IMG/VR virus record: IMGVR_UViG_3300044624_002824
Coordinates: 1 to 36,708 of that record
Direction: 5' to 3' (one strand)
Length of the DNA: 36,708 nucleotides
Source of the DNA: a virus
The notes under the pieces were generated by a model that was not told the DNA's origin, made no database searches, and saw only the letters and a program-made list of their open reading frames with translations. How positions within the stretch are numbered: the stretch's first letter is position 1; each line of letters starts with the position of its first letter. The translations under genes and the position numbers were made by a program. Positions 8,697 to 33,329 of this stretch are shown piece after piece.

Positions 8697-11600
8697 GTAA
8701 CAACTTTCCTGAATTGGAAGATCGAGTTCTTAAAACTTACAACTCTCAAGCTCTTGAGAGCTTGGATGATATTTCGCTAGATCTTGAAGAACAAGATAAA
8801 ATCATAACAAAAATTAGCTCATCAAAATCTTCCGAGCTTAATGTTGATTATTCTGATTTCAAAAATCATATTTTCTTCGACTCTGCTTATGCTTCTGTAA
8901 ATTTTGCAGCCTCAAGAATAATTGAAAGTTTTCCTCTTGACGGAGAGTATAAAGATAGAAATGCATGGTTTGAAACCAACTCAGGATTTGAAAATTGGTT
9001 TTATGAAAACTGGCCAAAGCAACAAGGCTATATTCACTTGTCCAGTGGCTCGAACTATCTTCATGCTAACGATTTTCAGAATGAGATCAATTACAACAGT
9101 GGCAGTCGTTTAGGAAATTTACTTGTTGAATCGATAATTTCGCCATATCCAAACATTCCGACGAATTCCACGTATCCAATCGTAAATTTCAGAGGAACTG
9201 GAAGCTCCGATAACGGATTCTCTTTCTATATCAAGAATGAGTCGTCCGAGAAGTTCTTGAAGTTCAAGTTGATAACTTCTACCGGCGAAACGACCGCGTC
9301 CGTCGCATACGACCAGTATATCAGTTCTTCAAATTACGTTGCGGCAAAGGTAGATCAGGCAAGAATTTCACTGTTCGTAAACGGAAGTGTAATATCAGAA
9401 ACGCCTATTGTGTTTTCTGGAACTTCTATTTTTACAAAAAGCGTAACTGTTGGTTATTCAAAAGATCTTGCTGTAGAAAATTTCTATTCTGGCTCAATCG
9501 ACGAAGTTCGCATTTGGTGCAGTGATAGGTCTAACGATTTAATCATCAAAAATTTCCAGAGAACAATTTTTGCAAATCACTCTGGAGGGTTAAAGCTGTA
9601 TTGGAAATTTAATCAATCTCAGGAATACGGAAATAAAATTGTTGATTATTCCGGAAATTCCTTGCATGGAACAATTGCCGGAACGCCAAATCTTTCCACC
9701 ACTCTTGTAAGCGGAACGCTAGGCTCGTGGTTTAAAGATTCTGGAGATGCAATTTTCAATCTTGAAAACGCTAGGGTTAATTCTTTTTTGTCAGAACAGA
9801 GGTTGTCTGCTTCGAATTATGATGATTCAAATTCAAACATGATTTTCAATCTTGTTCCTTCTTATTTTACAGAAGGTGACAACACAGAATATCAACAGTT
9901 GTTTCTTTTGCTTACTGCTAGACACTATGACAGATTGAAGCTTTACATTGATCATCTTTCGAATGTCGGAAAGCTCACTACTGAAAAGTTTAACGGCCCT
10001 CCAGCAAATTTATTAGATTTGGCCGCAGAAAATTACGGAATTGACATTGGTGGAGTCTTTTCGGACAGTAATCCTCTTCAATATTTCTATGGAGAGGATG
10101 TAAATTCTTCTGGCTCTCTGGACGTAACGATCAAATCGATTCGAGAGATACTGAAGAGAAACGTACTTTCAAATCTTGCATACATCATTAAAACAAAATC
10201 TACGCGCCAAGCTCTCAAAGCAGCAATTTCTTCTTTGGGTCTTGACGAGAATGTGATATCTGTTTCGGAATACACGGACTTTTCTGGCGGAATCAGAACG
10301 ACCTACACTCCACGAACTGTCGAGGCACGAGTTGCCAATTTTCTCACCTCCTCACTTGTTCATGTTAGTTCGTCAGCATATACACCAACCCAAGATGGAA
10401 CTATTCAGTTTAGAGTTCTGTTCAATACTGGTTCTAGTCACCTATCGCAATCTCTGTATTCTGTTTACGATACCTCTGGTAGCGTGATCTATGGTGCTCG
10501 TGTAGAAAGGGCCAATTCGTCTTCATCCTTTGCAAAATTTAGGTTGTTTTCTAGAGACGGAGTTTCTCCAGGACTTGTAGAAGCAACGTCTTCGATAGAA
10601 GCTTTCTCGAATAAGTGGATCAATTTTACTTTGATGAGACAACCAACGCTTGGCAGTATTTCTTACAAAATCACATCGGCTGATAGAGTCGGAATACTGT
10701 TTTCTTCAAGTAACTTTTTGTCTTTAAGCGTACCATCTGCTCCAATACAAAGAATTACTCTCGGAACATCTGGTTCTAATTTCTTTTCTGGCGCCATGCA
10801 AGAATTTAGAGCATGGAGGCAATTTGTTCCAAGTTCTTCGAATATTGACAGATGGGGTTTGGACTGGCAAAATACAGAAGTTAATGATCTAGAGCAAGAC
10901 ATAAACAAACTCGTTCTTCATTTGAAGCTTAATGATTTTACCTCTTCTGTAACTGGAGGAGGGCAGATTCATGACTACGTTAACGCATTGTCTGGAAATT
11001 CTTATTCAGGATTTCCGACAAGTTCTCAATATGCATTTCCGGGAAAATATATTGACAGGTTCGAGTCTTCGATTTCATACGATCTTAGTACTGACAATGA
11101 TAAAATTCGAATAAAAAATGATTCAGAATTTTATCATAGCGATAAAAACTTTGACATTCCGTTTGTTTCTATCAATTTTTCTCCAATTAACTCTCTAAAC
11201 AAAGAGATTTTCAAGTGGGTTGGAGATATTTCTAAACTTTCAAATATTCTCGGAGAGACGACTAACAGATACAGAGAGACTAACGCAAAACTCAATTCTC
11301 TAAAATCGATCTTTTTCAAAGAAAAAGTAGAATCAAAGATTGATTACGAAAAATTCTCTAATGTTATCAAATGGTTCGACAATAACTTTGCAAATCTTTT
11401 GAATCAACTGATTCCTTTGGATGTTGCATCAAGTATTTCGAGCTATGTTATCGAACCTCATATTCTCGAATTAAATTCTGTAAAAAAGAATATAGCCGCA
11501 TCTGATCTCAATAGAACATTTAACCTTCAAGCTACAATCGCCGTAACTCCTAGTTTGGAATTGTCCTCTGTTACGACAGAATTGTCTTTGGCTGATCCTG

Positions 11601-19612: not shown

Positions 19613-20584
19613 ATGTCCATAGGAAATTCTTGCAAGCTTTGCCTAAAGCAAATAGAAACAAATCAATACGGAGCTTTTTGCTCTTCTTCATGCAAGCAGA
19701 AATCTGCAAAAACAAACTCTAAAAACATTAAAAAAGAATGTCAAAAGTGTTTCAAAGAATTTTTCTGTATAAGCTCTTTATCTGAAGTCTCTCGTTTTTG
19801 TTCTTGGGAATGCAGAAAAATAGAAACTTCAAAAAAGTGCGAAGAATGTGGCTCGGATTTTTTGGTTAATAGTGTGAACCACATAAGGAAAAGATTTTGC
19901 TCCGCAGCATGTGCCCGAGGCGGCAGCAAGAGTCACTTCTATGGTCTTAAAGGTGAATTGAGTTACACCCGTGGACAGACTCCGTGGGCCAAAGGAAAAT
20001 CAGCCAAAACTGACGAAAAACTAGCCGCACTTGGAAAGAAGATTTCTTTCAAATTGAAAGATAAATTTAAAAATGGTGAACTGTCAAATGCGGGAGAAAA
20101 TAATCCTATGTTTGGCAAGCACTGGACCGAAGAACAAAAAGATCGCGCTTCGATAATGGTTACTGACAGAATGAAAAACGGAGATTGGAACACAAACAAT
20201 CCAAAATTCGTTTGCGGACACTACGAATCAAAAAAGATGGGCAAAAAGCTCTGGCATCGCTCCTCTTTAGAATTGCGTATCATGAAATGTTTTGATGCCG
20301 ATCCTAATGTTTCTTCGTACCATCCTGAGCCTTTTCCAATTCTGTACAGCAAGAACAAAAGATATGTTCCTGATTTTATGTGTGAATACTCAGATAAGAC
20401 GACATGTATACTTGAATGTAAGCCAAAATTTCAACTTGAGATAAAACAAGTTCAATTAAAATCCATTGCTGCAAAAGAAATGTGCGAAAAGAATGACTGG
20501 AAATATGAAATCTATACTTTGGAAGACATAGAAAAGTACGAAATCAGATTAGGATTAGATAATGTCTTACAAAAAATTCAATGA
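19613..20584 (+). CDS. Free-standing mobile endonuclease: three zinc ribbons, NUMOD3, TnsA-like PD-(D/E)XK nuclease
   Basis: Residues 7-100 hold three similar zinc-ribbon units, each CxxC followed 12-20 residues later by CxxxC (CKLC..CSSSC, CQKC..CSWEC, CEEC..CSAAC). Residues 155-185 contain a NUMOD3-type DNA-binding motif (GENNPMFGKHWTEEQKDRAS), typical of homing endonucleases. Residues 205-310 look like a TnsA-type restriction fold: HRSSLELRIM (Glu220), RYVPDF (Asp254) and ILECKPK (Glu268, Lys270), then a conserved helix and 'YEIYTLEDI'. It would cut DNA at a chosen site and spread its own gene. No Shine-Dalgarno is visible. The gene separates two paralogues and its end overlaps the second by 23 bases, so it looks like a recent insertion. 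An unrelated nuclease role is less likely. Confidence 0.8.
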   Translation: MSIGNSCKLCLKQIETNQYGAFCSSSCKQKSAKTNSKNIKKECQKCFKEFFCISSLSEVSRFCSWECRKIETSKKCEECGSDFLVNSVNHIRKRFCSAACARGGSKSHFYGLKGELSYTRGQTPWAKGKSAKTDEKLAALGKKISFKLKDKFKNGELSNAGENNPMFGKHWTEEQKDRASIMVTDRMKNGDWNTNNPKFVCGHYESKKMGKKLWHRSSLELRIMKCFDADPNVSSYHPEPFPILYSKNKRYVPDFMCEYSDKTTCILECKPKFQLEIKQVQLKSIAAKEMCEKNDWKYEIYTLEDIEKYEIRLGLDNVLQKIQ

Positions 20585-23009: not shown

Positions 23010-23951
23010 GTGCACGAAGAAAAAATTGGTATCCTGAGAGAGATGTTCCCCGATTCGGTCCTTCGCAAAGGCGGGACGGAATTTGTTTGTAGGTGCCCAT
23101 CTAAGTCATGCAAAGCTGATCCTAGATATTTCGCAAAGAAGAAGCTAGAGATCAACCTGTCTGGAGACTATTTCGCATGTTGGAGATGCCACTATAGAGG
23201 GCATATGATTCAGTTGTTGCGTGCACATGCAACGCCAGTACAGAAAGCTCGGTACTCAAAACTGATTGGATTGAAGGTTGATTCTACAGAAGAAGTTCAA
23301 GGTTTCGTGCTGCCAGATGAATACAAATTTGTTCTTGATGATTTCAGAACAAACAATACAGCAAAGAGAATCTACGAATGGCTTTCGGGACAGGGAATTT
23401 CTGATGATTCTATTCTTCAAAATAGAGTAGGATACGTAGAAGACGGTGAATTGTCCAACAGAGTTCTTTTTCCGTCTTACGACAAAGAATGCGAGCTGAA
23501 TTATTTTGTTACTAGACACATCTGGTTAAAGAATCAATACAGATGGTTGAAGTGTTCAAGGAGTTCGAAAGGAAATATTTGGAATGAACATTTAATTGAC
23601 TGGAATCGACCAATTATTTTGACAGAATCCGTTAAGACGTATTTGAAGTTTTTCGACCAAGATAAAAATATCGTAACAAACAATGGCTCTGGGTTGAATA
23701 AAAATTATAAACTCTTTGCCAGTATTCTTATGGAGTGCGATCAAGACATCATAATCGCTTTCGATCCCGACGCTAAAGGAGAAGCTCTCACTTTGAGTGA
23801 AGAACTTTCAAGATTTGGCTGCATTCCAAAGATTGCGACTTTTGATAAACAACCAGACGAACTGTCTTTCTGTGAATTCCAGGAAGCGATAAAATCAGCA
23901 AAACAGTTCAGCAAATTCGACAGTTTGAAGCACAGGATCTCACAAATATGA
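23010..23951 (+). CDS. DNA primase (zinc-binding plus Toprim, T4 gp61-like)
   Basis: 313 residues, close to T4 gp61 (342). An N-terminal zinc site is formed by Cys27/29, Cys34 and the pair C57-W-R-C60 (FACWRCHYRGHM). The Toprim catalytic parts are Glu206 in PIILTESVKTYL and Asp252/Asp254 in IIAFDPDAKG. The enzyme synthesises RNA primers on the lagging strand. Start is GTG 23010 with only a weak ribosome-binding site; an alternative ATG at 23043 has GAGAG just before it and would remove 11 residues without harming the zinc site. It overlaps the next gene by 4 bases. No helicase domain is present, so it would rely on a separate gp41-like helicase. Confidence 0.85.
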   Translation: MHEEKIGILREMFPDSVLRKGGTEFVCRCPSKSCKADPRYFAKKKLEINLSGDYFACWRCHYRGHMIQLLRAHATPVQKARYSKLIGLKVDSTEEVQGFVLPDEYKFVLDDFRTNNTAKRIYEWLSGQGISDDSILQNRVGYVEDGELSNRVLFPSYDKECELNYFVTRHIWLKNQYRWLKCSRSSKGNIWNEHLIDWNRPIILTESVKTYLKFFDQDKNIVTNNGSGLNKNYKLFASILMECDQDIIIAFDPDAKGEALTLSEELSRFGCIPKIATFDKQPDELSFCEFQEAIKSAKQFSKFDSLKHRISQI

Positions 23952-26900
23952 AAAAGATTAAGATTGCTCATTTGGCAGATGTTCACGTTCGTCCTCATCA
24001 ATATCTTGATGAGATGCAATTCACGTTCGATAAATTTTTTGAGTCAATTACGGCAGAGAACGTCGATCTTGTTGTTATTTGTGGAGATTTTTTCCACTCT
24101 AAGCTAACGGTTTCGTCTGAATACTTCGATGTTGCATATTCATTTTTCCGTAAACTTGGAGATAATTTCAGATCTATCATCATTCCAGGAAACCATGATT
24201 CCGCACTTACGAATCAAGGAAAGATGGACTCAATTAGTCCTATCGTGTCGGCTGTAAATCGTGATGCAAAATACACAATTCAATATCACAAGAAGAGCGG
24301 AACTTTCTCTGTCGAGAATTGTGATTTCATTAATTTCCACCACTTCTCAATTCTTGAAAATAAGACTGAATGGCCGAAGTCTAGTTCGCTCGATCAGAAC
24401 AAAATCAACATCGCTCTTTATCATGGAGCAATCAATAATTGCATTGTTGACAACGGCTGGACATCGAGAGGAAACAGAGACGACATTACCATCTTTAGTG
24501 GATTTGATTTTGGATTTCTCGGAGATATTCACAAAGCTCAATATCTGGACAAAGAGGAGACTATTGCTTATCCTGGCTCTTTGAGGCAAAATAATTTCGG
24601 AGAAGATATCAACAAGGGATATCTCGTTTGGGAAATTGAAGAATCTGGAGGCTTCTCTTCTAGAAGAGTTATCTTGGATCAGAAGAGATATTTCTTTACG
24701 TTCACAATTGATTCTGTTCAAGAACTCGGAAAGTTAATTTCTGAAAATGATAATCTTCCTAGTGGTTGCAGATGGAGAATCAAGTCAACAAAAAATCTTG
24801 ATATTACTGACGAGATCTTGATCAAAGAAGAAATAATCAAGAAGTATTCACCAACTGGAGATATCCAGTTCATGCCGCCAGAAGACGAGCCTCTTTCTAA
24901 CGCTTCAATCAAGGTTGGAAATTTGGATATTCTTCACGATAATATTCGAGATTCGGAAGTTCAAAAGCAACTTATTGAAGAATATTTCAACAAGAAAGAA
25001 CTCGATCAAGCATTAATCGACGAAATCGTAGCCTTGGACAAGGTCTATCATTCGCACGTTGATACAGATGTTTTACGAGACGTGATTTACAATCCGAAGA
25101 CTTTGAAGTGGGATAATTTTCTGTCATATGGAAAAGGAAACTCGATCAACTTTGATAAGCTGAATGGTTTAGTTGGTGTCTTCGGAGCGAATGGGACTGG
25201 AAAGAGTTCTATTTTTGACGTGCTTTTCTTTCCGCTGTTCAACTCGATCTATCGCGAGGGCGCCAACAAAAACGGTGACTATGTCAATCGCAAATGCAAG
25301 AGGTCATCAGTTTCGTTAGAGGTGGAATTGAATCAATCAAGATTCGTAGTCGAGCGAGAGATAAAGAAGACTTGGACAGACGGAAAACCAGAACCTAAAG
25401 TCGAAAATTTGGTTGATTTTTGCAAGCTTCCAAAGTCTGATGCGAATTCTCTCAATGGAGAAACTGGCCCAGACACAAACAAGTTCATTCGAGATATTTT
25501 TGGCTCAAAAGAGGATGCAGAAATGCTTTCTCATTGCAGCCAATTTGGATTGATGTCTTTCGTTGACGCAAAGGGTACGAAACGCAAAGAAGTTCTTTCT
25601 AAGTTTTTTGATCTAGGGGTGTTTGACACAAAGTTTGAATTGGCTTCCAAGGACTACAAAGAGATCAAGATGAAGCTGAAGGATTGCAACCGAGACACTC
25701 TTCTGGCCTCTAAAGCCAAGTACGAAGAGATTGTTTCTAAATCCTCTGATGACAAGAAGGTATTTGAAGAAGATATTGTTTACGCAAAGAAAGAATTGGC
25801 GGAACTTGATGATTGTATCCTATCGCTTACGAAAGACCTTGTAAAGATTCCCTCTTTTGGAAACTCTGATCATCAGAAAGACATTGAGAAGCTTCAATCA
25901 ACAGTTGATTCCCTGACTGCGAAGGTTGATTCTCTCAGAGAATTTTCTTTGCGCCACGAAGAGTTGGAGGAATTGAAAGAACTTGAAAGAATCATTTATG
26001 GTTACAAGCAAAGCCTTCCAATTCTTGAGAAGCAATCAAAGCTAATAGACGGAGTTCCAAACGTTCCAGAATGTCGAACTTGTCCTTTGGTTGGAAATTC
26101 CTATGCTGCATTGGAACAGGTTCGAACTTTGTCTAAACGAACCTCTGAGTCAGAAGAGGTTCTTTCGAGGCTTGCCAAAGCAAAAGAATTTGATCGTCTT
26201 TCTTTGGAACTTGACAAACAAAAAGCTTTTCTTCAAATCAAGCAAGCAAGCTTTGATGCTTATCTTCAGAACGTTTCGAAAATCAAGAAAAACGAAGAGA
26301 TAGAAGTTCTGTTAGGAGACCTGCAAGAGAGAAAGTCCAAAGTGAAAAAGAGACAAGAATTTTCCGAGTCTAAGTTCATTGCCTTAGTAGCAGAAGAGGC
26401 TGGAGCAAAGATGAAGCTAGAATTTGCTTCTGAGAAACTTCTCATGGAAGAAGGTTTGTCCGCCAAGGAAAAAATTTACTCTCTCTATCTTGACGCAATG
26501 AGCAAGAACGGAATTTCCTATTGGATCATTTCGAAGAAGCTAACATTGATCAACAAGTTGGTTAATCAAATTTTGTCCCAGGCAGTGTCGTTCAAGTTCT
26601 CTATCGAAGAAAACGAAGAAGAGAAAAGTCTCAAAGTTTTCATCATTGACACAGACAAAGGAAAGCGGCCGATCGAGTTGGCAAGCGGCGGAGAGAAGAC
26701 TTTGATTGCATTGTCGTTTCGTGCAGCTTTGTGGAAAGTGTGTCTCTTGCCGAAGATGCCCATACTTATTCTTGACGAAAGTCTGGTTTTCCTAGATGCA
26801 GAAAGGTATGATAGCGCAATCAAGTTGATCAAGTACCTTTTGACTGATTATTTCGACAAGATCTTCATCGTAACCCATAATGAAGAAATCAAGAGAGTCG

Positions 26901-26959
26901 TTGACGACTCGATCTATATCAGTAGACACAAAGACTTTTCTTACGTTGAGGTAAAGTAA
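23948..26959 (+). CDS. Single-chain Mre11-Rad50 (SbcD-SbcC, T4 gp47-gp46) fusion nuclease/ATPase
   Basis: One uninterrupted 1003-residue frame encodes both subunits. Residues 1-240 form the Mre11/SbcD phosphoesterase: Asp11-His13 (LADVHV), Asp47 (VICGDFF), Asn82-His83 (PGNHDS), His159 (LYHGAI) and Asp193/His195 (FGFLGDIHKAQ). Residues from about 385 form Rad50/SbcC: Walker A GANGTGKS at 413-420, two coiled-coil arms (about 560-700 and 720-850) joined by the zinc-hook Cys709-R-T-Cys712, the signature LASGGEKT at 911-918 and Walker B PILILDES at 938-945 with a D-loop. The summed length (about 340 plus 560) matches T4 gp47 and gp46, so nothing is missing. It would resect DNA ends for recombination-dependent replication. 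It overlaps the primase by 4 bases. Confidence 0.92.
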   Translation: MKKIKIAHLADVHVRPHQYLDEMQFTFDKFFESITAENVDLVVICGDFFHSKLTVSSEYFDVAYSFFRKLGDNFRSIIIPGNHDSALTNQGKMDSISPIVSAVNRDAKYTIQYHKKSGTFSVENCDFINFHHFSILENKTEWPKSSSLDQNKINIALYHGAINNCIVDNGWTSRGNRDDITIFSGFDFGFLGDIHKAQYLDKEETIAYPGSLRQNNFGEDINKGYLVWEIEESGGFSSRRVILDQKRYFFTFTIDSVQELGKLISENDNLPSGCRWRIKSTKNLDITDEILIKEEIIKKYSPTGDIQFMPPEDEPLSNASIKVGNLDILHDNIRDSEVQKQLIEEYFNKKELDQALIDEIVALDKVYHSHVDTDVLRDVIYNPKTLKWDNFLSYGKGNSINFDKLNGLVGVFGANGTGKSSIFDVLFFPLFNSIYREGANKNGDYVNRKCKRSSVSLEVELNQSRFVVEREIKKTWTDGKPEPKVENLVDFCKLPKSDANSLNGETGPDTNKFIRDIFGSKEDAEMLSHCSQFGLMSFVDAKGTKRKEVLSKFFDLGVFDTKFELASKDYKEIKMKLKDCNRDTLLASKAKYEEIVSKSSDDKKVFEEDIVYAKKELAELDDCILSLTKDLVKIPSFGNSDHQKDIEKLQSTVDSLTAKVDSLREFSLRHEELEELKELERIIYGYKQSLPILEKQSKLIDGVPNVPECRTCPLVGNSYAALEQVRTLSKRTSESEEVLSRLAKAKEFDRLSLELDKQKAFLQIKQASFDAYLQNVSKIKKNEEIEVLLGDLQERKSKVKKRQEFSESKFIALVAEEAGAKMKLEFASEKLLMEEGLSAKEKIYSLYLDAMSKNGISYWIISKKLTLINKLVNQILSQAVSFKFSIEENEEEKSLKVFIIDTDKGKRPIELASGGEKTLIALSFRAALWKVCLLPKMPILILDESLVFLDAERYDSAIKLIKYLLTDYFDKIFIVTHNEEIKRVVDDSIYISRHKDFSYVEVK

Positions 26960-30284: not shown

Positions 30285-33200
30285 ATGCCGCCAACAAACA
30301 AAGAATCCGCCATCGAAAAACAGCTTGGAGATGATTCTCCTTTAAAAAAGCTGATCAAGATTTTCAGAACGAATACTGTAGTCAAGCATCATTTTCAAGG
30401 AAACGGAAGCAAGAAGCCAGTTGGCGTTGCTTCTATGTTTTTCAAAGATACTCTGGCTTGGAATTCAAACGTTGTTCCTGGATATACAGCTTACGAGAGG
30501 TTTTCGAGATATTCAGACTATTGCCTAACGGGCGATACAAAGATCGCCAGTACAAACGAGTCTGGATGGATCTACCTGAAAGACATTGTTGAGAATTTCA
30601 ACAGTGGGAAAATTTTTCATGTATTCGCCATCGATCCAAAGACAAACAAAGTTGTAGTTTCTCCCGTTTCTGCTGCAAGGAAAACGAAAGATGCAGAGAT
30701 TTGGGAAGTTCTTTTGGATAACGGAGAAATCATCCGAGGAACCAACGATCATAGAATCATGATGAGAGACGGAAGCTACAAACAGATCGACCAGCTTGTC
30801 GAGTCGGATGCTTTGATGCCATTCGTCAGAAGGGAGTATGATCAACGAGGCGATGGAAAGACTCGTGGGTATTACAGAAAGATCAAAAATGTTGACGGTA
30901 CATCTAGGTCGGAACATGTTCTGGCTGCTGAAAATTACTTCAACACAAAGATTTCTGGAAATTATCATCAACTTGTTGTTCACCATAAAAATTTCAAAAG
31001 AAATGATAACGGAATCGAAAATCTTGAAATTATGACTTCTGAAAATCACAACAAGCTACATTGTGATTTGAATAATAGAAGATTCTCAATCCCAGAAAAC
31101 AGAGAAAAGCAGTCAAGTATAGCGAAATCTCGATGGAGTTCTGATGGAGATTTGAGACTGAATCTTTCTATTATGCTCAGGAAGAGAAAGAAAACTCAAG
31201 GTTGGAAAGATTCATGTCAAAGATTGGTTGACATGAACAAGAGCGATAATCATCCTGCAAAGAAATTTGACATTCAAAAAATGTATAATTCTTACAGAAA
31301 AGAAGATTCGATGGTTGGGCTCGCTTCAAAGATCAATCTGAGTCCGCAAACAATTACAAGAAATCTCAAAAAGAACGGATATTCTTCCTGGAAAGAGTTC
31401 AAGGAAAAATATACGAACCATAAGGTCGTCTCTGTAACTAAGACAAATATAATCGAGGCAGTTTACGATATTACAGTTGACAATCATCACAACTTCGCCA
31501 TTCATAATGCTTGCTTTGTTCATAATTGCGAAATGATCGCATATCCCGTTCTCGGAAAAGCTCTTCAGATCTATGCTGATGAGTCTACCCAAAAAGACGA
31601 AGACGGAAACATCGTAAAAGCTACATCTGAGTCAAAAATTGTAGAAGATCTTCTCCAAGATCTTTTCGATAATACGCTTCAATTGAACGGCAAGCGAATC
31701 TACAAGATTGCAAGAGATTTATGCAAGTACGGAGACAGAGTCGACTTGATCGATATTACGACAGATAATGGTGTCGTAAATCTGATCCAAATGCCTGTAA
31801 ACGAAGTAGAGAGAGAGGAAGGTTTCGACAAGAACGAACCTCAAGCCGTTCGCTACAAGTGGAATACTAGAAATTCAAATCAAGAAATTCCAAATGCGTT
31901 CGTTTGTCATTTTCGATTGGACGGAGATGATCTTTTTCACCCTTGGGGACAAAGCATTCTTGAAGCCGCCAGAAGACCCTGGAGACAACTAATTCTTCTT
32001 GAGGATGCGATGATGGTTTATCGCATTACTCGAAGCGCAGAGAGACGAGCCTACTATTTCGACGTTCAGGGCATTGCCCCCGACAACGTCGAAGAGGCAA
32101 TGAATAACGTCAATATTCAGTTGAAGAAAAAGAAGGTTGTGAATGAAGAGGGAAAGATTGATCTTCGTTATGGCGCAACTCTCGACATGTCCGAAGATTA
32201 TATTATCCCTGTTCGTGGAAATGATTCAGGGACGAGAATTGAAACTCTTCCTGGTGGACAAAATATTGGCGATATCGAAGATATCGAATTCATTCAAAAG
32301 AATCTTTTTGCAGCTCTTGGTATTCCAAAGGCTTTCTTGACGTACGATGAAGGAATTGGAGCCAAGCAGGTTCTAACGATGGAAGACGTCCGTTTCGCAA
32401 GAACGATTGCGAAAGTGCAAGAAGCAATCATTGCCGAACTTGTCAAGGTTGCAATGATCCATTTGTATATCAAAGGTATTCGTGGAAAGGATTTGATTTC
32501 TTTCAAGATCAAGATGACCAATCCTTCTACTGTTGCAGAGATGCAGAAGAATGAACTTTGGCGTGGCCGAATGGATTTGGTTCAAGCTGCTGGCCAAGGC
32601 GTTTTTGATACAACCTTCATTTACAAACATTTCTTGAAATTGTCTGATGATGCGATTGATACGATTCGCAAGGGACAAATTCAGGACAAGATCTTCCAGG
32701 CTAAACTTTTGGCTCTTGAGAATTCGGGCGGCGGTCTTGCTGGTGGCGCGATGGGCGGAATGGGCGGCGGAATGCCAGGAATGGGCGGAGGAATGCCCGG
32801 AATGGACGCAATGGGCGGCATGCCAGGAATGCCACCTCTTGGTGGAGCACCAGGCGGAGCGCCTCCCAATGTATCAGGAATGCCAACAATGCCAGAAGGA
32901 TTCAATCCAGAAGTCGCTTCGAACGGAATTACCGGAGGCGGAAAAGATCTTACTCGAAGAAGTGCGAACGAAAGAGTTTTGACTGCACGCGGTGGAGACG
33001 AATCAAACATCAACACTTTCGAAGATATTGGCTCTGATATTCAAAGTGATCTTGGACTTGATACAATGAAGCGAAACGTGACTTCTCCAATGGGCACGAA
33101 TGAAGCTCTTGATTATTTCTTGAAGTCTGTGTATGGAACTTCTAGAAAATTAAACGAAGATCAAAACTACACTGTTGGCGGCCCCCATAATATTGACCAC

Positions 33201-33329
33201 AAGAGGATGCTAAATTATCTTCAAGAGAATTTTGGCGACAAGGAGAAGACGATTATCCAGGAAGAGGTTCAAAGCTCTTTTGATGAAGAATTCTCGAAAT
33301 ATGAAGGAAAAATAAAGACCGTACTTTGA
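30285..33329 (+). CDS. gp20: Portal protein (gp20-like) containing an in-frame intein
   Basis: The 1014-residue frame is a 679-residue portal interrupted by a 335-residue intein. Extein residues 1-79 end with YTAYERFSRYSDY and continue after the intein with CEMIAYPVLGKALQIYADES, which is the conserved clip and stem-entry pattern of T4-like portals ('..Y.E...YPE...ALDIYADE'). Further portal motifs include 'LFDNTLQLNG', 'HFRLDGDDLFHPWGQSILEAARRPW' (in two parts) and the 'IQKNLFAALGIPKAFL' region. A Gly/Met/Pro-rich stretch (32723-32900) precedes an acidic, Gln/Glu-rich C-terminal extension. The portal forms the dodecameric channel through which DNA enters. Excision of the intein would be needed for assembly. 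Confidence 0.9.
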   Translation: MPPTNKESAIEKQLGDDSPLKKLIKIFRTNTVVKHHFQGNGSKKPVGVASMFFKDTLAWNSNVVPGYTAYERFSRYSDYCLTGDTKIASTNESGWIYLKDIVENFNSGKIFHVFAIDPKTNKVVVSPVSAARKTKDAEIWEVLLDNGEIIRGTNDHRIMMRDGSYKQIDQLVESDALMPFVRREYDQRGDGKTRGYYRKIKNVDGTSRSEHVLAAENYFNTKISGNYHQLVVHHKNFKRNDNGIENLEIMTSENHNKLHCDLNNRRFSIPENREKQSSIAKSRWSSDGDLRLNLSIMLRKRKKTQGWKDSCQRLVDMNKSDNHPAKKFDIQKMYNSYRKEDSMVGLASKINLSPQTITRNLKKNGYSSWKEFKEKYTNHKVVSVTKTNIIEAVYDITVDNHHNFAIHNACFVHNCEMIAYPVLGKALQIYADESTQKDEDGNIVKATSESKIVEDLLQDLFDNTLQLNGKRIYKIARDLCKYGDRVDLIDITTDNGVVNLIQMPVNEVEREEGFDKNEPQAVRYKWNTRNSNQEIPNAFVCHFRLDGDDLFHPWGQSILEAARRPWRQLILLEDAMMVYRITRSAERRAYYFDVQGIAPDNVEEAMNNVNIQLKKKKVVNEEGKIDLRYGATLDMSEDYIIPVRGNDSGTRIETLPGGQNIGDIEDIEFIQKNLFAALGIPKAFLTYDEGIGAKQVLTMEDVRFARTIAKVQEAIIAELVKVAMIHLYIKGIRGKDLISFKIKMTNPSTVAEMQKNELWRGRMDLVQAAGQGVFDTTFIYKHFLKLSDDAIDTIRKGQIQDKIFQAKLLALENSGGGLAGGAMGGMGGGMPGMGGGMPGMDAMGGMPGMPPLGGAPGGAPPNVSGMPTMPEGFNPEVASNGITGGGKDLTRRSANERVLTARGGDESNINTFEDIGSDIQSDLGLDTMKRNVTSPMGTNEALDYFLKSVYGTSRKLNEDQNYTVGGPHNIDHKRMLNYLQENFGDKEKTIIQEEVQSSFDEEFSKYEGKIKTVL
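30522..31526 (+). mobile_element. Intein with HNH homing endonuclease in the portal gene
   Basis: The insert starts with Cys1 (CLTGDTKIAS, block A) and ends HNACFVHN, followed by the +1 Cys of the C-extein; block F is YDITVDNHHNFAIH. Block B is RGTNDHRI (Thr74, His77). All splicing residues (Cys1, penultimate His334, Asn335, Cys+1) are present, so self-splicing is expected. The middle contains an HNH-type motif at residues about 151-180 (LVVHHKNFKRNDNGIENLE then SENHNKLH) and a helix-turn-helix at 262-296 (GLASKINLSPQTITRNL) typical of NUMOD/IENR DNA-binding tails. Length 335 aa, normal for an intein with an endonuclease. The element inserts at a conserved portal position, a common preference. 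Confidence 0.93.
32723..32900 (+). repeat. Gly/Met/Pro-rich low-complexity repeat in portal C-region
   Basis: About 60 codons encode a string of Gly, Met and Pro (two copies of GGGMPGM, then MGGMPGMPPLGGAPGGAPP). The DNA is locally G+C-rich (ggcggaatg units) against an AT-rich gene. The segment is likely flexible and sits between the portal core and the C-terminal extension. Reading-frame integrity is kept. Tandem nature makes it a likely place for length variation. Confidence 0.85.

Follow-up and report, generated by a model that had tools for sequence, protein, structure and literature searches.

A single reading frame for Mre11 and Rad50

The window analysed here, a stretch of viral DNA of 36,708 nucleotides, is a fragment of a tailed-phage genome with a T4-like portal gene and with genes for terminase and baseplate. 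On its plus strand, positions 23948-26959 encode a protein of 1003 residues in one open reading frame, with a single terminal stop and zero internal stops on translation. Pfam searches of this protein identified a calcineurin-like phosphoesterase domain (Metallophos, residues 4-170), a Rad50-type AAA_23 domain (386-622) and SMC_N (812-993). PHROG 77 (SbcC-like) spans residues 382-1001, and sequence matches in the PDB were to Rad50 for the C-terminal part and to Thermotoga Mre11 for residues 2-230. These data confirm that the phage gene encodes the Mre11 nuclease and the Rad50 ATPase (SbcD-SbcC), together a familiar machine for repairing DNA breaks, as one chain, a natural fusion with the nuclease first, as the initial annotation had proposed from the translation.

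The domain boundaries were placed with the help of an AlphaFold model built on a 65-row alignment (mean pLDDT 84, pTM 0.56), a monomer model that is silent on dimerization and on docking between the two halves. Foldseek matched it to Rad50 heads and to nuclease-plus-cap structures of SbcD/Mre11. The nuclease domain (residues 1-243; 23948-24676) has the expected alpha/beta order, with pLDDT mostly above 85, and is followed by the capping domain at about residues 247-330 (24686-24937), assigned from the secondary structure of the model and a fold match to the nuclease and capping domain of SbcD (7dog). Residues 336-368 (24953-25051) form a helix-loop-helix (helices 336-348 and 354-368), likely the Rad50-binding part of Mre11 by homology to T. 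maritima Mre11 (PMC3175470). A linker of about 13 residues (369-381; 25052-25090), mostly without regular structure in the model, then leads from helix 354-368 to strand 382-389 and into lobe I of the Rad50 head (382-556; 25091-25615), which is supported by AAA_23, PHROG 77 and Rad50 fold matches. The coiled-coil arms (557-851; 25616-26500; model helices 557-578, 582-629, 642-700 and 713-851) carry the hook between them, and lobe II of the head (852-1003; 26501-26956) comprises the SMC_N match, the signature SGGE, Walker B ILILDE, the D-loop and the His switch. The order nuclease, cap, Rad50-binding helices, short linker and Rad50 head/coiled coil/hook/head is thus shown.

Conservation of the motifs was scored in non-redundant fused proteins, 70 or 71 of which were read at each position. 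In the nuclease half, motif I (D11-V-H13; 23978-23986) retains its Asp and His in 70/70 proteins, motif II (GDFFH, residues 46-50; 24083-24097) its GD in 70/70, motif III (GNHD, 81-84; 24188-24199) its GNH in 71/71 and motif IV (H159-G160; 24422-24427) its His in 71/71. Motif V (residues 192-195; 24521-24532) reads GDIH, Asp standing where GHxH has its first His. The protein had been credited with all Mre11 metal motifs; this holds for motifs I-IV, which are canonical, and fails at motif V. In the Rad50 half every motif named in the initial annotation can be read: Walker A (GANGTGKS, 413-420; 25184-25207; GK in 71/71), the zinc-hook-like C709-R-T-C712 (26072-26083), the signature S913-G-G-E916 and Walker B (ILILDE, 939-944). 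G914, E916, D943, E944 and the His-switch residue H977 are each present in 71/71 proteins. At the hook, C712 is likewise found in 71/71, but in most relatives the spacing of the first Cys differs; the hook region of the window (26050-26083) has CRTC, compared with PCGDxxPxC in most fused relatives. The ATPase-side hallmarks of Mre11-Rad50/SbcCD are present: a split ABC head that has Walker A, the Q-loop, the signature, Walker B and the His switch, together with a coiled coil and a Cys hook.

Directly upstream, and also on the plus strand, lies a gene for a DnaG-like primase (23010-23951; PHROG 47, Toprim) that overlaps the start of the fused gene by 4 bases (ATGA); a RuvC-like resolvase gene precedes the primase, and the downstream gene starts one base after the stop codon of the fusion. 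A homologous primase gene is found upstream, on the same strand and within 6 kb, at 58 of the 59 fused loci with enough sequence. Elsewhere in the window, a free-standing endonuclease gene with TnsA-like and NUMOD3 domains (19613-20584) sits within the structural gene cluster, and the T4-like portal gene (30285-33329) contains an intein and also shows a weak, in-frame HNH endonuclease match. Positions 1837-2502 match T4-type late sigma factor weakly (PHROG 234), and at 216-931 a fragment of a PfkB sugar kinase, with a cupin-like protein after it, may represent sugar metabolism genes.

Authenticity and distribution of the fusion

An assembly or sequencing error can join two adjacent genes into one apparent frame, and Listeria phage LMTA-57 served as a positive control for the look of such a false fusion. 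Its single 'recombination exonuclease' (L106, 2908-5937) differs from the split genes of phage LMSP-25 by one 1-base indel in 6001 bases (99.98% identity), to which alone it owes its 'fused' state, and its 'linker' is translated intergenic DNA; the indel probably reflects an error in sequencing or else a mutation of very recent date. The fusion in the window looks different. A contig from another sample (IMGVR_UViG_3300044640_001726) matches the window over 18,601 bases with 10 substitutions, none of them in the fused gene, and no indels, so that the frame is identical. Homologous viral loci are mostly full-length single frames as well (77/80), and throughout the family the junction consists of homologous sequence, the helix-loop-helix and linker, rather than of translated intergenic DNA. 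On these grounds an artefactual origin was rejected, and we give it a negligible chance. The possibility of a stop codon or frameshift between the halves, raised in the initial annotation, is answered in the same way, from contigs rather than reads: there is none in the window or in the second contig, and more than 70 diverse fused homologues occur on other viral contigs.

Those homologues come from one scan of viral contigs, which yielded at least 208 related loci; 80 were kept for analysis, 77 with single frames of about 1000-1100 residues and 3 that reach contig ends. Among annotated phages, fused genes are present in Microcystis phage Mel-JY01 and in pT24 and PTm1; the 190-kb genome of Mel-JY01 gave a single match, to the fused form, and none to a separate pair. 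The nearest viral fold matches of the model were single-chain 'DNA repair exonuclease' proteins of giant viruses (Tupanvirus, Harvfovirus, Catovirus) and proteins of phages LMTA-57, pT24 and PTm1; the best were kin of Mimivirus R555 in Tupanvirus and klosneuviruses. A scan of bacterial genomes returned 16 metagenome-assembled contigs with matches, some with the same upstream primase, or short and gap-joined. We read them as phage contigs in bacterial bins, a reading not proven for each, and set aside a chromosomal or host origin. Among plasmid records, none reached 80% coverage of the query, and the Clostridium kluyveri and Deferribacter fusions of PMC3175470 were not recovered at the sensitivity used. 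No clear Mre11-Rad50 match was present in Flavobacterium phage immuto, whose terminase and primase mark it as a close relative.

Single-chain Mre11-Rad50 proteins are not the rarity that the initial annotation implied, and environmental phages commonly carry them. Mre11/Rad50 fusions were described in Mimivirus (R555), Bacillus phage 0305phi8-36, plasmids, bacteria and eukaryotes (Yoshida, Claverie & Ogata, 2011; PMC3175470). The same study found the nuclease-first order and short linker compatible with the T. maritima complex, and reported relatives of R555 to be abundant in aquatic metagenomes and, by inference, mostly viral. No later papers on fused Mre11-Rad50 proteins were found in a literature search that included few subscription papers. 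The protein in the window is thus one more member of a group known since 2011 and not a new design, and as a fusion per se it leaves existing knowledge unchanged. The family of fused phage proteins, on the other hand, extends far beyond the handful of cases reported in 2011; as one large, mostly unannotated family with a primase upstream, it may be new.

Motif V and the putatively re-split relatives

Asp occupies motif V in 71/71 fused proteins (D193 in the window), and motif V was not used as a search pattern in the homologue scan. The fused set is a single clade, so this count represents one or a few evolutionary events rather than 71. Tenacibaculum phages pT24 and PTm1 also have Asp, and in Mimivirus R555 the residue equivalent to P. 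furiosus His206 is reported to be Asp (PMC3175470). Every two-protein relative that we read has GHxH instead: T4, E. coli, HTVC008M, Troll, LMSP-25 and a Moorella phage, and likewise Yersinia, Erwinia, Bacillus and Twort phages, a 595-kb phage, a Burkholderia plasmid protein and a further Listeria-associated contig. With a non-canonical motif V, nuclease activity is not to be assumed. The Asp probably still binds the second metal ion, but metal preference or rate may be altered, and activity could be changed or reduced.

A group of large phages among the relatives encodes the complex as two chains. On a Bacteroidales-binned contig (L101, L116) and on viral contigs (L118-L127, the longest 363 kb), a nuclease frame of 276-316 residues ends inside the cap; contigs that cover both parts also have a second frame, of about 790-808 residues, which runs from the cap remnant via the Rad50-binding helices into Rad50. 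The two genes are kilobases apart, often on opposite strands, and about 244 kb apart on the 363-kb contig. Examples are the nuclease and cap-Rad50 frames at L101 7971-8822 and L116 1450-3828, a pair on opposite strands in L119 (nuclease frame 9986-10822 on the plus strand, 808-residue frame on the minus strand) and a pair in L123 (9872-10819 and 17711-20131). Motif V in this group is GHIH. The re-split Rad50 frames (L101/L116, L119-L126) also have a two-residue insertion in Walker A, for example NGTPANQSGKST.

In a tree of the concatenated halves, a node with 100/100 support sets the fused and re-split proteins together apart from the two-protein set; within it, the re-split group falls among the fused proteins (nodes 97/99 and 98/94). 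Trees of the single halves each also need two changes, and an AU test did not reject the fused proteins as one clade without the re-split group (p 0.178). Nesting of the re-split group inside the fused set is therefore favoured by the tree but not proven; whichever the order of events, the C-terminal part of Mre11 had become joined to Rad50. One possible history, to which we give slightly less than even odds, is that the phage fusion arose once together with the His-to-Asp swap, and that one lineage of large phages later re-broke the chain inside the Mre11 cap rather than at the old junction, so that the cap remnant and Rad50-binding helices stayed attached to Rad50, with GHIH at motif V. Such a history would provide natural fused, canonical and re-split versions with which to probe the covalent link and the metal ligand. 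The re-split group itself, with the complex broken inside the Mre11 cap and a cap remnant on Rad50, may be new.

Another form of interruption is seen in the 484-kb phage LR756508 (L005, 2944-7169), where a gene for 305 residues with a TnsA-like endonuclease domain, the domain type also found in the free-standing endonuclease of the window, splits the fused gene just after motif V. Rfam gave no fitting match for a group I intron at this interruption at E up to 1.

Proposed role and comparison with known systems

Overall, the gene is best explained as coding for an Mre11-Rad50 (SbcD-SbcC) enzyme that a tailed phage makes as a single chain, with a probability of about 0.88. By homology to T. maritima Mre11-Rad50, two chains would pair via their Mre11 domains and ATP-bound Rad50 heads, with the helix-loop-helix of each chain docking on that chain's own coil root. 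Hydrolysis of ATP would then open the nuclease site to DNA ends or hairpins, and the resulting ends would feed phage recombination and recombination-dependent replication, as with T4 gp46/gp47. The T4 proteins act in recombination, recombination-dependent replication and host-DNA degradation (annotation; PMC3175470). By this analogy, DNA-end processing for phage recombination and replication is the most likely role, and the primase and resolvase neighbours fit it. As the window is a 36.7-kb fragment, a second, unfused pair is possible in the rest of the genome.

Three other readings were weighed against an active single-chain enzyme. The nuclease half may be catalytically weak or dead and the protein limited to end binding or tethering, a suspicion raised by GDIH for GHxH in every fused member read and in R555, and by GHIH in the phages with a broken chain. 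Asp can bind metal, however, and a dead domain would have no need for the near-invariance seen at the other metal and catalytic residues; we consider this reading unlikely, though the least so of the three. That the main role is an attack on host or competitor DNA rather than phage replication would accord with the annotated activity of T4 gp46/gp47 in host-DNA degradation, but the conserved neighbour is a primase and no host-takeover genes were recognised adjoining the fusion, which makes it decidedly improbable. Less probable again is cleavage of the chain after translation into ordinary Mre11 and Rad50, with fusion a mere means of co-expression. In its favour, the model shows a short linker that lacks regular structure, and the existence of two-gene relatives indicates that one chain is not strictly needed; against cleavage, no protease site or protease gene was identified, and the relatives break inside the cap, not at the linker.

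If the chain stays uncut, the fixed 1:1 stoichiometry that the initial annotation had stressed does follow from it, but it adds little because a related phage group encodes the complex as two chains again. Since the machine is difficult to assemble, a single-chain Mre11-Rad50 encoded by one gene would be convenient for studying it; natural comparisons are available in the re-split relatives and in the fixed change of metal ligand.

Among known systems, R555-type fusions share with the window protein an Mre11-then-Rad50 chain with cap, helix-loop-helix and short linker kept, the motif V Asp and aquatic viral relatives. Here the cap and helices 336-368 are retained and about 13 linker residues precede Rad50, close to the 9-12 or so expected of this type (PMC3175470). 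R555, compared by its published description, is longer (1351 residues), with longer coiled coils and a eukaryotic host, in contrast to the 1003 residues and tailed-phage gene order in the window. Mel-JY01 (1066 residues), pT24, PTm1 and the 484-kb and 735-kb uncultured phages have the same domain order and GDIH, and in Mel-JY01 and the 484-kb phage a primase homologous to that of the window lies just upstream. The Mel-JY01 and 735-kb phage proteins nevertheless show only 23-29% identity to the window protein, the pT24 and PTm1 chains are much longer, and the 484-kb phage gene, unlike that in the window, is interrupted by the endonuclease gene. T4 gp47/gp46 and other two-protein phage SbcD/SbcC share the domains and probable role, and T4 also has a short coiled coil and CxxC hook; they differ in having two genes, GHxH at motif V and a place outside the fused clade in the tree. 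E. coli SbcCD has the fold and motifs of the window protein, but is encoded by two genes, with a much longer coiled coil and GHIH at motif V.
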